Positions 1 through 60,029 of a stretch of 64,000 nt of DNA are shown here, in pieces (within the stretch, counting starts at the first letter, position 1; each line of letters starts with the position of its first letter). The notes beneath the pieces are model-generated. The model had not been told where the DNA came from, searched no databases, and saw only the letters and a list, made by a program, of their open reading frames with translations. The stretch covers positions 124,001 to 188,000 of the forward strand of contig JALCPP010000005.1 of assembly GCA_022650485.1 (NCBI GenBank), in the 5' to 3' direction. The DNA is from Oscillospiraceae bacterium (GTDB lineage Bacteria > Bacillota > Clostridia > Oscillospirales > Acutalibacteraceae). The translations under genes were made by a program, and so were the position numbers.

Positions 1-135
1 AACACAGGGGGTATGCAGGTAAATGGAGGTTCAGGAGGCACTGGAGCGGCCCTCGGCCAAAGTGGTTCTGCAAACGGTTCCGCTGGTGGCATTGGTTCCA
101 TCACAGTCTTATCTTATGATGATTTGGAGGTTTAA
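1..135 (+). CDS. C-terminal end of a glycine-rich phage structural protein (partial)
   Basis: An open frame runs from the first base to a TAA at 133-135, giving 44 residues that are very rich in Gly, Ser, Ala and Asn and end in SYDDLEV. Gly-rich ends of this kind are common in tail-fibre or other structural proteins of phages of Gram-positive bacteria. The position directly before a lysis module fits that reading. The start lies outside the window, so family assignment is inference only. Confidence 0.5.
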   Translation, partial: NTGGMQVNGGSGGTGAALGQSGSANGSAGGIGSITVLSYDDLEV

Positions 136-138
136 CAT

Positions 139-501
139 ATGTCTAAAGAAATGCGCGTTGTAATTTTTCATAATGGTGTCGATTCCAGCAAAACTTATGC
201 TGAGCAGCTTGCTGGACAAATTGACAGCGAAACAACGCTTTTAAATTTCCGCGACCCGCATCCATGTGCGGAGGCTTTGCCGCTGCGGGCTTCTCCCGAT
301 GTGGCACTCCTACTTTTTGTGGATTCGTTGGAAGACGTTCAGGCACAAGTTGATGTTCTCCGACAGATTGGGTATATCAGCAAGCAGGATGATGCTCTGA
401 CAGTCGTCGATGAACTGATTGACTCGGCGGGAGATAACATTTCGGATGAACTGGCAACAAAGATAGCGAATACGTTCTACAGGGAAGGTGACGTGCAATG
501 A
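139..501 (+). CDS. Hypothetical phage protein, 120 aa
   Basis: The gene starts three bases after the preceding stop, behind GGAGG at 127-131, and its TGA overlaps the ATG of the next small gene (ATGA). The soluble protein has no signal peptide or membrane segment. Its N-terminal half alternates short hydrophobic strands and helices (MRVVIFHNG, then ALLLFVDSLEDV). I do not recognise the family. Its place between a tail-type protein and the lysis genes suggests a tail-associated or late phage protein of unknown function. Confidence 0.6.
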   Translation: MSKEMRVVIFHNGVDSSKTYAEQLAGQIDSETTLLNFRDPHPCAEALPLRASPDVALLLFVDSLEDVQAQVDVLRQIGYISKQDDALTVVDELIDSAGDNISDELATKIANTFYREGDVQ

Positions 502-653
502 CCGGACGGTTAAAAAATCTGACTAAAGTAATTCAACGCCGAATTGCAGCCGGAGAAAAGCAGGATACTGTACTGGCAAATTACCTTTTGACGGATAGCG
601 AAAAGGCGGAAATCATTGCCGAATTGGCGGTAACTACCAGCACGACAGCATGA
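498..653 (+). CDS. Small hypothetical phage protein, 51 aa
   Basis: The ATG at 498 overlaps the previous stop by four bases, and the frame is open to TGA at 651-653. The product is helical and charged (LKNLTKVIQRRIAAGEKQDT) and ends in a Thr/Ser tail. Very small genes at this place, just after tail genes and before holin and endolysin, are usual in siphovirus and PBSX-like regions (the position of xkdX). I cannot show homology. Translational coupling and position are the support. Confidence 0.5.
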   Translation: MTGRLKNLTKVIQRRIAAGEKQDTVLANYLLTDSEKAEIIAELAVTTSTTA

Positions 654-700
654 TCACCGGCGAGGATTATTCTCCGGCGGTGTAAAAGGAGGATTGCATA

Positions 701-1015
701 ATGCCAACGTGGGTGCTCTGGGTGCAAGCTCTCGGTGTTCCGTCGTTGATGGCAACGTTCGTGATTATTGGAGTCCAGCGCGCGTTAAAAAAGCGAGATG
801 ATCAGGAAAAAGAACGCGAAAAGGCTCGGCAGGAGAACAACGTGCTGCTGATTCGGATGGTGGGCGCATCGATTGCACTAGGTGAAGCCACGGCCCATGC
901 CGTACAGCTTGGACACCCAAACGGGGACATGGAATCGGCGCTTTCGTATGCGCAACAGGTCAAGCATGAGCAAAAGGATTTCCTAACGGAACAGGCACAA
1001 AAAAATATTGCTTAG
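701..1015 (+). CDS. Small membrane protein of the phage lysis module, holin-like
   Basis: The 104-residue protein has one N-terminal membrane segment (about residues 4-24, LWVQALGVPSLMATFVIIGV). A strongly charged stretch likely to form a coiled coil follows (KKRDDQEKEREKARQE), then a soluble helical tail. AAAAGGAGG lies eight bases before the ATG. One N-terminal membrane helix plus a charged cytoplasmic helix directly before an endolysin fits a holin, a pinholin accessory or a haemolysin XhlA-like protein. I cannot choose between these from sequence alone. Confidence 0.5.
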   Translation: MPTWVLWVQALGVPSLMATFVIIGVQRALKKRDDQEKEREKARQENNVLLIRMVGASIALGEATAHAVQLGHPNGDMESALSYAQQVKHEQKDFLTEQAQKNIA

Positions 1016-1027
1016 GGGGGATTCGAA

Positions 1028-1933
1028 ATGAACGGTATTGATGTATCAAAATATCAGAACCATATTAACTGGTCCAAGGTAGATGCTCATGGGATCGATT
1101 TTGCTCTGGTCCGCATTGGTATGGGCAACACAGCAAATCAGGTTGATCCGTATTTCCGCGAAAATGTAGACCAGGCACTTGCGCATGGCCTGCATGTTGG
1201 TGGGTATTACTTCGGGTATGCAACATCAATACAGGACGCACAAAAGGAAGCAGATGTCTGCAACCAGCTATTGCAACCATATAAGGGCAAATTGACTTTT
1301 CCAATTGCCTATGATTACGAGTACAATTCCGTCGATTATTTCAGGCGCGTTATGGGCCGGGACCCGACAAATGCAGAAATTGATTCGTTTGCCTGTGCAT
1401 TTTTAGATAGGATGAAATCATACGGCTGGTTTGTGAATCTCTACACGAATATTGATTTTATCAGGTCCGGAAAATTCAAAACGGCAATCAAAAAATACGA
1501 TATATGGCTGGCCGATTATTCGGGTGCCCCAGATTATCCGTGTTATATCCAGCAGACCGGCAGCACCGGGCATATTCCAGGCATTAATGGCAATGTGGAT
1601 ATTGATGTTTCATTCCGTGATTACCCAACCATGATTCGTGCGGGCGGGTACAATGGCTATCTAAAATCCGCGCGTACCGCGGTCCAGATCGACACGACGC
1701 AGAACATCGCGTTCAAGACTGGCGAAATGTACACGGTCAAAACGACCTCCGGACAGATGCCGGAATTGTACGCGGGCACGGACAATGTCGTAATCGTCAA
1801 ACACTGCAGGCGGGAAATGTCTTATGATTATTGGCATCTGATTTTCACTGGCAAACCAGGAACGGCAGCGGGAATCTTTACACGGCTGCCCGGGGAAGCA
1901 CCGGTAAAGCGCTTTGTAGCATCGGTGGCCTAA
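1028..1933 (+). CDS. Phage endolysin, GH25 N-acetylmuramidase
   Basis: This 301-residue lysozyme of glycoside hydrolase family 25 cleaves the MurNAc-GlcNAc bond of peptidoglycan. The family signature is visible as GIDVSKYQNHINW at the N terminus (Asp5), and the acidic pair expected in the active site is in IAYDYEYN (Asp96, Glu98). The catalytic domain ends near residue 205. A C-terminal part of about 85 residues probably binds the cell wall. GGGGGG lies about seven bases before the ATG. The gene sits between two small membrane proteins, as in a phage holin-lysin cassette. No signal peptide is present, so export would depend on a holin. Confidence 0.9.
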   Translation: MNGIDVSKYQNHINWSKVDAHGIDFALVRIGMGNTANQVDPYFRENVDQALAHGLHVGGYYFGYATSIQDAQKEADVCNQLLQPYKGKLTFPIAYDYEYNSVDYFRRVMGRDPTNAEIDSFACAFLDRMKSYGWFVNLYTNIDFIRSGKFKTAIKKYDIWLADYSGAPDYPCYIQQTGSTGHIPGINGNVDIDVSFRDYPTMIRAGGYNGYLKSARTAVQIDTTQNIAFKTGEMYTVKTTSGQMPELYAGTDNVVIVKHCRREMSYDYWHLIFTGKPGTAAGIFTRLPGEAPVKRFVASVA

Positions 1934-1973
1934 AATAACGGCTGGACAAAGGCCAGCAGAAAGAAGAATACAG

Positions 1974-2180
1974 ATGAACTGGAAAAAGAAATTGACTTCT
2001 CGGAAACTTTGGGCAGCGGTTGCATCATTCGTGACACTGCTTGTGGTGGCGCTAGGCGGGGGTCAAGAACAGGCAACGCAGGTTACAGCAATTATCATGG
2101 CAGGAGCGACGGTTGTCGCTTACATTGTTGGCGAGGGCCTTGTGGATGCGGCGGCGTCCGACGGTAAGAATTCAAAATGA
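1974..2180 (+). CDS. Small membrane protein, probable phage holin
   Basis: The 68-residue protein starts with a basic segment (NWKKKLTSRKLW). Two hydrophobic stretches follow (about residues 14-30 and 37-58) separated by a short turn GGGQEQATQ, and the tail is short and polar. Two membrane helices with a basic N terminus directly behind a GH25 lysin match small clostridial phage holins or related membrane proteins in general design. It is the last gene before a strong terminator and probably the last gene of the prophage on this side. Confidence 0.55.
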   Translation: MNWKKKLTSRKLWAAVASFVTLLVVALGGGQEQATQVTAIIMAGATVVAYIVGEGLVDAAASDGKNSK

Positions 2181-2211
2181 TTCTAAAAAACGGTGGAAGA
2201 TAATTTTGTTT

Positions 2212-2253
2212 CCCGCTGGCCTTATTAGGTTGGCGGGAGTTTTATTTTTATTT
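2212..2253 (+). terminator. Rho-independent terminator at the end of the phage lysis genes
   Basis: A 10-bp stem CCCGCTGGCC/GGTTGGCGGG (2212-2221 and 2228-2237, with G-T pairs) closes a six-base loop and is followed by a T-rich run to 2253. It overlaps the 3' end of the truncated deacetylase on the other strand, so it also marks the prophage side of the junction. Confidence 0.85.
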
Positions 2254-2794
2254 CTAGTGTTTCAACATCCCACTGAATTGCGTACATACCCAGATCCTGT
2301 GTTCCTTTTACCACAGCGTTGTTATAATCGCCGTAAGGGGGTCGGAAGAGGAGAGGGCTGACCCCGGTGATTGCCTTGATTTTATCGTTGCAGGAAGAGA
2401 TTTGCTGTTTTATATCATTTTCCGATAGTTTTGGCATATGGGGGTGTGTATTGGAATGATTGCAGACTTCATGCCCTGCAGCGGCCAGCGCTTTGACGGA
2501 ATCAGGGTATTTGTCAACCCATGCGCCCACGACAAAGAAAGTCGTTTTTACATTGTATTCCTTTAAAATATCAATCAGTGTCTGGGTTTGTTCATTTCCC
2601 CAAGCCGCATCGAAGGAGATGGCAATTTTCTTTTCTTCCGTTTTTACATTATAAATTGGAAGCAGGCGTTTGCTGGCGGAGGCCTGGACGGCCTGAACTC
2701 CGCGCACGCCCACGGCGGCCGCCAGCACGAGTGCCAGGACAGAAAACAGGACGGCCAGCAGCCGCTTTCGGGTTACGGTAAAGACACGCATCAT
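2225..2794 (-). pseudogene. Truncated polysaccharide deacetylase (NodB domain, PdaB-like)
   Basis: The 189-residue product has an N-terminal signal anchor (about residues 10-36) and most of a NodB deacetylase domain. The SFDAAWG motif holds Asp62, the metal-binding HSNTHPH holds His113 and His117, and RPPYG is at about 151-155. Sporulation-type (PdaB-like) relatives are normally about 250 residues and continue after the W-D-V-D/E-S/T-L stretch with a further strand and a final catalytic L-F-H motif. Here the match stops at WDVETLE (175-181), and eight unrelated residues encoded by the phage terminator region follow. The last third, including the final His motif, is missing. The gene is probably interrupted by the prophage. 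AAGGGG lies six bases before the start. Confidence 0.75.
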
Positions 2795-2854
2795 CTATTT
2801 CCCCTTTCTGTTTCAAATATATGCGAAAGAGGGTGACATAAAACTGGATTCTCG

Positions 2855-59765: not shown

Positions 59766-60029
59766 TTGCAGACTCTGACGGCCGTTGTCTGTGCGTTAGG
59801 TGTTTTGGCATTGTTGGTTATTATCCAGCTTATTGTAAAAGCGGAGCACCCGGTTCGACGGGCGATCGGCGGAATATTGACTGGACTTTGCGCACTCGCG
59901 GTTGTAAATTTAACAGGATCTTTCACAGGGGTTACCCTTCCCATCAGTCCCTTGACCCTTGGCGTTTCAGGTACGGCCGGAATATCCGGCGTTACGATGC
60001 TGCTTTTACTGGACCTTATCTTAAAATAG
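59766..60029 (+). CDS. bofA: BofA-family pro-sigma-K processing inhibitor
   Basis: In Bacillus, BofA holds the SpoIVFB protease inactive in the forespore outer membrane until signalling. The 87-residue protein has two to three membrane helices and the family end GLCALAVVNLTGSFTGVTLP, then GVSGTAGISGVTMLLLLDL. The start is TTG behind GGAGGTG. The gene points to an endospore-forming host, though members also exist in Clostridia where the sigma-K pathway differs, so its precise target here is not certain. Confidence 0.85.
   Translation: MQTLTAVVCALGVLALLVIIQLIVKAEHPVRRAIGGILTGLCALAVVNLTGSFTGVTLPISPLTLGVSGTAGISGVTMLLLLDLILK

Follow-up and report, generated by a model that had tools for sequence, protein, structure and literature searches.

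Several sporulation genes are known to be split by intervening elements. In C. difficile, the skin element divides sigK; its large serine recombinase (LSR), CD1231, is constitutive, and its recombination directionality factor (RDF), CD1234, a small protein without database relatives, is made from a sigma-E promoter under the control of sigma-E/SpoIIID and directs excision (passages of PMC5025042). In B. subtilis, the prophage SPbeta lies in the spore-envelope gene spsM and is served by SprA/SprB, and the accessible part of the same account describes relatives with reduced elements and names vfbin and vrin, which intervene in the mother-cell genes spoVFB and spoVR (PMC4191935). The gerE gene of B. 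cereus is split by gin, a non-phage element with three recombinase genes, and a prophage occupies the gerE locus of another Bacillus (excerpts of PMC5595907), so there is a precedent for both kinds of element occurring in a single sporulation gene. In C. botulinum, yabG is split by yin, a prophage-like element with a recombinase that is unique to one strain according to the available portion of PMC10747680.

The locus described here, known from sequence alone, resembles skin in that an LSR element splits a presumed sporulation gene and in that a small element protein, here a candidate of 48 aa, may direct excision. It differs from skin in its target, a cell-wall deacetylase instead of a sigma factor, and in that the element is a complete phage. 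It has in common with SPbeta the position of a prophage in a spore-envelope gene, the LSR and the relatives with reduced elements, but the gene, the host group and the recombinase subgroup are different. Non-phage elements occupy the gene as gin does gerE, and seven loci here have one dinucleotide in common. As with yin, a prophage-like element with a recombinase sits in a clostridial sporulation gene, but the target is another one and the site has been hit repeatedly. The locus is likewise comparable to vfbin and vrin, from which it differs in the gene. The word 'pdaB' does not occur in the available texts of PMC4191935, PMC5595907 and PMC10747680, and no report of an intervening element in pdaB was found among the matches listed from the open-licence literature. 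We consider it probable that the locus is a sporulation switch of the skin/SPbeta type, with a pdaB-like gene as a new target.

The interrupted gene and its junctions

The analysed stretch of 64,000 nucleotides (hereafter referred to as the window; Table 1) contains a deacetylase frame of 189 codons, which matches Polysacc_deac_1 of Pfam with 138 bits and has its best NCBIfam fit, 139.3 bits, to TIGR02764 (spore_ybaN_pdaB), covering only model positions 1–131 of 191. A preliminary description of this DNA had read the frame as a PdaB-like deacetylase with a signal anchor and motifs 1–3 on the minus strand, and these matches bear it out. All three intact relatives tested likewise fit TIGR02764 best; because their scores (226.9, 223.6 and 217.2 bits) lie below the curated PdaB equivalog cut-off of 237.4 bits, the gene is called 'PdaB-like'.

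Table 1. Features of the split deacetylase locus (plain numbers, positions in the window; C5, positions on the contig)
Feature	Position	Strand	Remarks
Window	G000:C5:124001-188000		from a 2.55-Mb genome
Deacetylase frame	2225-2794	-	189 codons, open reading frame list
Host part of PdaB-like deacetylase	2264..2794	-	codons 1-177; signal anchor; SFDAAW, HSNTHPH, RPPYG, up to QWDV
GA crossover dinucleotide	2262..2263	-	at both host/element junctions; last host-derived bases, first two of Glu-178 codon GAA; splits Asp codon of VDSLDW
Read-through tail in phage DNA	2225..2261	-	third base of codon 178, 11 more codons and stop
Element half-site at window junction	2234..2261	-	imperfect inverted repeat of other end's half-site, 16/28
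Prophage end inside window	1..2261		element DNA from 2261 leftwards, extending to C5:91778
Phage endolysin	1028..1933	+	glycosyl hydrolase family 25; Pfam, PHROGs
Phage holin	1974..2180	+	PHROGs
Deacetylase 3' part	C5:91529-91777	-	stop at C5:91529
Large serine recombinase	C5:92308-93768	-	486 aa, 0.5 kb from deacetylase 3' part
48-aa protein	C5:98244-98390		G000 element; starts MPLKC; divergent from LSR
CATATATTT, -10-like box (sigma-E type)	2815..2823	-	upstream of gene in many relatives
TATG, -35-like element	2837..2840	-	weakly conserved; ~14 bp upstream of -10-like box
BofA, sigma-K processing regulator	59766..60029	+	host sporulation gene; PF07441, 57.4 bits

The same description had the frame departing from its family right after WDVETLE and losing its C-terminal third. 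The departure is real, with the crossover lying three residues earlier, inside WDVETLE, at the Glu-178 codon, and the loss was read correctly: 81 of the 259 codons of the rejoined frame (31%) are absent, and 22 of 24 relatives are longer, continuing with a DSLDW-type motif and then an L-x-H-N motif. Counted from the match start, the relatives measure 252–265 aa in 18 cases and 327–351 aa in four, and are short in two (L003, from Caproicibacter fermentans, and L013, from UBA5406), in both of which the deacetylase is short because another element occupies the same GA dinucleotide. The expectation that prophage-free relatives have the full-length gene thus held, a genome of the same genus (G003) included. 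The frame ends, as had been noted, in the lysis side of the phage, whose endolysin and holin genes lie in the phage DNA of the window.

A tblastn search with the C-terminal parts of relatives located the 3' third on the same contig and strand (C5:91538-91783), 76% identical to L005 and 78% to L004; the only other match to the deacetylase C-terminal part in the whole genome had an E value of 0.58. The preliminary description had predicted such a fragment beside an integrase at the other prophage end, and an LSR adjoins it. The two gene parts are separated by 34,486 bp, with one copy of the GA core counted. Thirty of the at least 48 frames of this element were submitted to PHROGs, the primase without its last part, and 27 of the 30 matched. 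The matches comprise integrase, repressors, SSB, primase, small and large terminase, portal, head/protease, connector, tail sheath, tape measure, baseplate, tail fibre, endolysin and holin. By gene content, the element is a complete temperate myophage, with all expected modules matched in PHROGs. The best match listed for its terminase was at 47.5%, and scans of viral contigs for the free phage or attP joint, the LSR and the gene found none. A gene for a 165-aa protein (L074:7799-8296) separates the LSR from the 3' part. The protein was considered as a directionality factor and rejected: it has no match in PHROGs or Pfam and is common to no other element at E 1e-4.

Six further genomes contain a complete split of the same gene (see below), and their junctions agree to the base. 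In all seven, the host part ends with TGGGAyGTnGA, the next base comes from the element, and the 3' part resumes with GA[C/T]. GA is the only stretch common to both junctions in all seven; individual loci share up to seven bases. These two bases open the Asp codon of VDSLDW, which in the CE4/NodB family is motif 4; the G201 version reads VDSRDW. When the parts are joined at GA, every locus gives an open frame without a stop: 259 codons in G000, 258 in G001, 270 in G004, 264 in G108, 253 in G201 and, counted from the match start, 239 each in G131 and G222. The half-sites flanking GA are imperfect inverted repeats, with 14–21 of 28 positions agreeing per element and 113/196 overall, compared with 65.0 +/- 5.8 when the halves were shuffled and 49.8 +/- 6.2 at randomly chosen positions of this DNA; such repeats are as expected for the attP sites of LSRs. 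A junction at CTAGA, which is repeated nearby in G000, was rejected, as the other loci lack CTAGA and crossing over at that point would produce VETLDW instead of VDSLDW. An assembly artefact was also rejected, the two gene parts being on one contig in each of the seven genomes.

Empty alleles and other occupants of the site

Among four genomes of the window's genus, G003 has the gene uninterrupted: the N part runs to L098:4698 and the C part starts from 4697, with codons 177 and 178 contiguous, and downstream are the same two genes as in G000, the first for a protein of 198 aa and the second for an alpha/beta SASP. The elements of the seven complete split loci measure 34,486 bp (G000), 18,950 bp (G004), 12,820 bp (G108), 4,905 bp (G201), 4,184 bp (G001), 3,870 bp (G131) and 3,869 bp (G222). 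All are in spoIVA-bearing genomes and each has an LSR. The G001 locus has the same coordinates as that of G005, to which L003 of C. fermentans belongs, and G004 is the genome of L013. Complete splits were found in at least six of 250 family genomes, G004 being outside those 250. G002, a 56% complete genome, and G323 have only the 3' part, starting at GA and adjoining other DNA in G002; they were left out of the complete count. G167 was rejected as a split locus, its interruption being a contig break, and so was G009, in which two contigs merely end at the GA site. The G009 contigs (end of L106, start of L107) terminate exactly at the pdaB GA site and overlap by ~20 bases; they could reflect an assembly branch from mixed excised and integrated forms, or chance.

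The elements differ in their cargo. The G004 element (L096:1422-18536) has genes for alpha-amylase, solute-binding protein and MoxR-type ATPase according to Pfam, and permease-like proteins recognized by eye only; a carbohydrate island thus rides inside the spore gene in this genome. The G108 element encodes a cytosine methylase and a surface-type SpaA/thioester protein. Alongside their LSRs, the G001 element carries a cold-shock gene, those of G131 and G222 a pyridine nucleotide oxidoreductase gene, and that of G201 an HTH/TPR regulator and a tyrosine-type integrase (L105:4309-5202, phrog_1), so that either the integrase or the LSR may be the acting enzyme in G201. No phage head, tail or lysis families were found among 10 further frames from the G001, G201, G131 and G108 elements. 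The G108 (L104) and G002 (L095) elements have two small genes in common, 71% and 59% identical, and the two genera may thus have received related mobile elements. The side and orientation of the LSR in G000 and G004 differ from those in G108, which argues for separate insertion events.

The LSRs of G001, G108 and G004 are 74%, 70% and 62% identical to that of G000, and those of G201 (40%), G131 and G222 (41% each) are more distant. Resolvase, Recombinase and Zn-ribbon domains were found in the LSRs of G000, G001, G108 and G131, and Resolvase plus Recombinase in that of G201; those of G004 and G222 were assigned by similarity. By sequence, the G000 LSR matches solved SprA (YokA) chains. In a survey of 398 family genomes with at most three candidates scored per genome, three LSRs among the matches listed were more than 60% identical to the window's, its own included, and all three are in the deacetylase gene. 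All relatives listed from phage and plasmid records were below 60% identity, the best at 38.7%. A location beside a deacetylase was rejected as a general habit of such LSRs: in 17 of 20 LSR loci (20 of 46 matches), no deacetylase match was found at E 0.01, the other three (L113-L115) having a deacetylase fragment.

The two gene fragments were also compared between genomes. Between G000 and G001, where synonymous sites are close to saturation, the dN/dS ratio was 0.031 for the N part and 0.046 for the C part; between G001 and the intact G003, the ratios were 0.039 and 0.084. For G131 and G222 they were 0.163 and 0.128. These latter two loci align in one blastn match (90.4% over 11,137 bp including flanks) and appear to share one inherited element, so that much of their divergence should postdate insertion. 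Purifying selection seems to act on both fragments, and a promoterless 3' fragment kept at low dN/dS would hardly persist unless it were used after joining. In the split deacetylase of G131 and G222 (L113:6803-6985 and L114:4668-4913), the frames are open, but the 3' part has lost the LFH histidine and reads RFQSS there; that gene may therefore be non-catalytic.

Sporulation setting and the candidate excision factor

SpoIVA (TIGR02836) scored above its cut-off in all 15 genomes tested, whereas in a control of 14 rings only B. subtilis did so; spoIVA is also present in G131 and G222. The BofA gene that had been reported in the window was confirmed, and the alpha/beta SASP gene (PF00269; 100.3 bits in G000) is two genes downstream of the deacetylase. 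In the 250 family genomes, a copy of the gene at E 1e-60 or better was found in 101 of 211 spoIVA-positive genomes versus 6 of 39 spoIVA-negative ones (Fisher p 1.6e-4, uncorrected for kinship and genome completeness; 19 of the 39 were set negative by absence from among the matches listed). The other 110 of the 211 have no match at this limit, which overlooks copies that are broken by contig ends or are divergent, as in G131 and G222; the gene is thus not a universal spore gene in the family. In 18 of the 250, no match was found at E 1e-12.

In 57 upstream regions, namely those of loci with an ATG start and 90 bp obtainable, some of them near-identical, CATATA occurred 33 times against 2.2 expected and CATA[TC]A 36 times, with a weak ATA-like -35 block ~14 bp before this -10-like box. 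Many relatives thus have a putative sigma-E-like promoter before the gene, and the motif is present in six of the seven split loci, G201 lacking it. In C. difficile, sigma-E and sigma-K promoters differ at -35, with ATA versus AC (part of PMC3789822), and a table from a sporulation-defect screen gives B. subtilis pdaB as spoVIE, of the sigma-E regulon (excerpt of PMC4703394). From the PdaB-like family, the sigma-E-like promoter, the SASP neighbour and spoIVA, we infer that the deacetylase is used in sporulation. Engulfment in B. anthracis requires inhibition of a cell-wall deacetylase, according to passages of PMC12700454, and, speculatively, an enzyme delayed until excision would fit that finding.

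A comparison of small frames among the elements revealed that, besides the LSR, one protein of ~48 aa is common to G000, G001, G108 and G004, the three others being 87, 47 and 30% identical to that of G000. Its gene, divergent from the LSR in all four, sits in G000 in the phage early region beside regulators, and is absent from the G201, G131 and G222 elements. Each copy is preceded by a GWYGTACAAY box with CATA 18 bp from the box start. The combination, with CATA at 17–19 bp, occurs only in these four places (10 rows) in 3.05 Mb, a figure that includes both strands of the fetched DNA and counts overlapping loci again; three more matches to the box lack CATA. A profile of the protein gave strong matches in 398 family genomes only in G000, G001 and G108, the three with a G000-type LSR, and two weak ones (E 0.002 and 0.004) that were taken as chance; since the profile was built from those three plus G004, it is the absence elsewhere that counts. 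The protein has no match in Pfam, none of note in the PDB, and a weak one in PHROGs to a family without assigned function (phrog_10986, E 0.04). We regard it as a candidate excision (recombination directionality) factor of the four elements, which are all those with this type of LSR. With one mismatch, the box resembles the B. subtilis SpoIIID consensus. SpoIIID was nevertheless rejected as its binder, as the case consists of this resemblance only. The box misfits the C. difficile consensus given in the available part of PMC5025042. A promoter scan found no sigma-E-like site before the LSR, the remaining matches being taken as chance, and this absence fits the constitutive skin LSR of C. difficile.

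The sigK gene was tested in 15 genomes, G131, G222 and G323 not among them. It is in one piece in all five pdaB-split genomes covered (G000, G001, G004, G108 and G201; those of G000, G004 and G108 score above the curated cut-off) and also in G009, G038, G059, G156 and G184. In G003 (L111) and G208 (L112), which are same-genus partners of pdaB-split genomes and have pdaB intact, sigK is in two parts, separated by ~12 and ~17 kb, respectively; an LSR-like protein is encoded between them, 36% (G003) or 31% (G208) identical to the window's LSR; these interruptions are skin-like elements within the family. In G121, the two parts of sigK lie on separate contigs, and one of them contains a stop codon. 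G002 gave no strong match, and G160 matched only at the level of the others' second sigma factor. With such small numbers, the pattern of sigK and pdaB splits is a lead.

Readings of the split gene

In the sporulation switch that we favour, a complete myophage of ~34.5 kb is integrated, probably by its own LSR, at GA in the motif Asp codon. As long as the phage stays there, the gene is split, no part of it has all the deacetylase motifs, and it would be inactive. In the mother cell during sporulation, a small element-encoded factor, for which the 48-aa protein is the candidate, would turn the LSR from integration to excision; once the element has left, the gene would close in frame to its 259 codons and be expressed from the sigma-E-type promoter. 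By analogy with skin and SPbeta, the mother cell would die and the prophage would therefore stay in the spore.

The phage of G000 is complete and has its own repressors, its candidate excision factor lies beside early-region regulators, and a close copy of the gene is absent from roughly half of the spoIVA-bearing genomes. All this would also suit passive lysogeny, the main alternative, in which the conserved gene is merely an attachment site, the phage exits only on induction, and the host lives without the deacetylase and without any sporulation control; no benefit to the host is needed. We nonetheless consider passive lysogeny unlikely, for elements too small to be phages (G001, 4.18 kb; G201, 4.9 kb; G131/G222, 3.87 kb) retain the LSR, the att sites and both fragments, dN/dS is low in the promoterless 3' fragments (in the lineage of G131 and G222, apparently even since the insertion), and the promoter-like box of the candidate factor has a CATA of the mother-cell type.

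If the split were instead a knock-out heading for loss, the missing LFH histidine of G131 and G222, the DSRDW of G201 in place of DSLDW and the 18 family genomes without a match to the gene would find a ready place. Such a decaying pseudogene is very unlikely, because all seven split genes are open and in register, the deacetylase motifs are retained in five of the seven (the DSRDW of G201 counted), and the G000/G001 fragments, at 0.03–0.05 with synonymous sites near saturation, have dN/dS values as low as the 0.04–0.08 of G001 against intact G003. Barely conceivable to us is that the product of the 189 codons functions as it stands, as a short deacetylase whose tail is encoded by the phage: the frame is open and preceded by promoter-like and ribosome-site sequences, but it lacks the DSLDW and LFH motifs, the tails differ among the split cases, and the 3' parts are conserved.

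Beyond the switch itself, the observations could be joined into a wider reading, which we regard as a long shot. GA would be a family-wide docking site for phage and non-phage elements, used by at least three divergent LSR groups, one of them served by a new family of 48-aa excision factors, and spore formers would carry one rearrangement timer, in sigK or in pdaB. The idea of one timer comes from the five complete pdaB splits with one-piece sigK and from G003 and G208, in which sigK is split and pdaB intact. Since both genes are in one piece in several genomes, the timer would not be obligatory.

Next to sigK, spsM, spoVFB, spoVR, gerE and yabG, the new target would be a cell-wall deacetylase. 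The locus adds att pairs together with their LSRs and a small candidate directionality factor. Phage-bearing, phage-free and empty alleles within one genus would form a natural series for how a parasite becomes a developmental switch.
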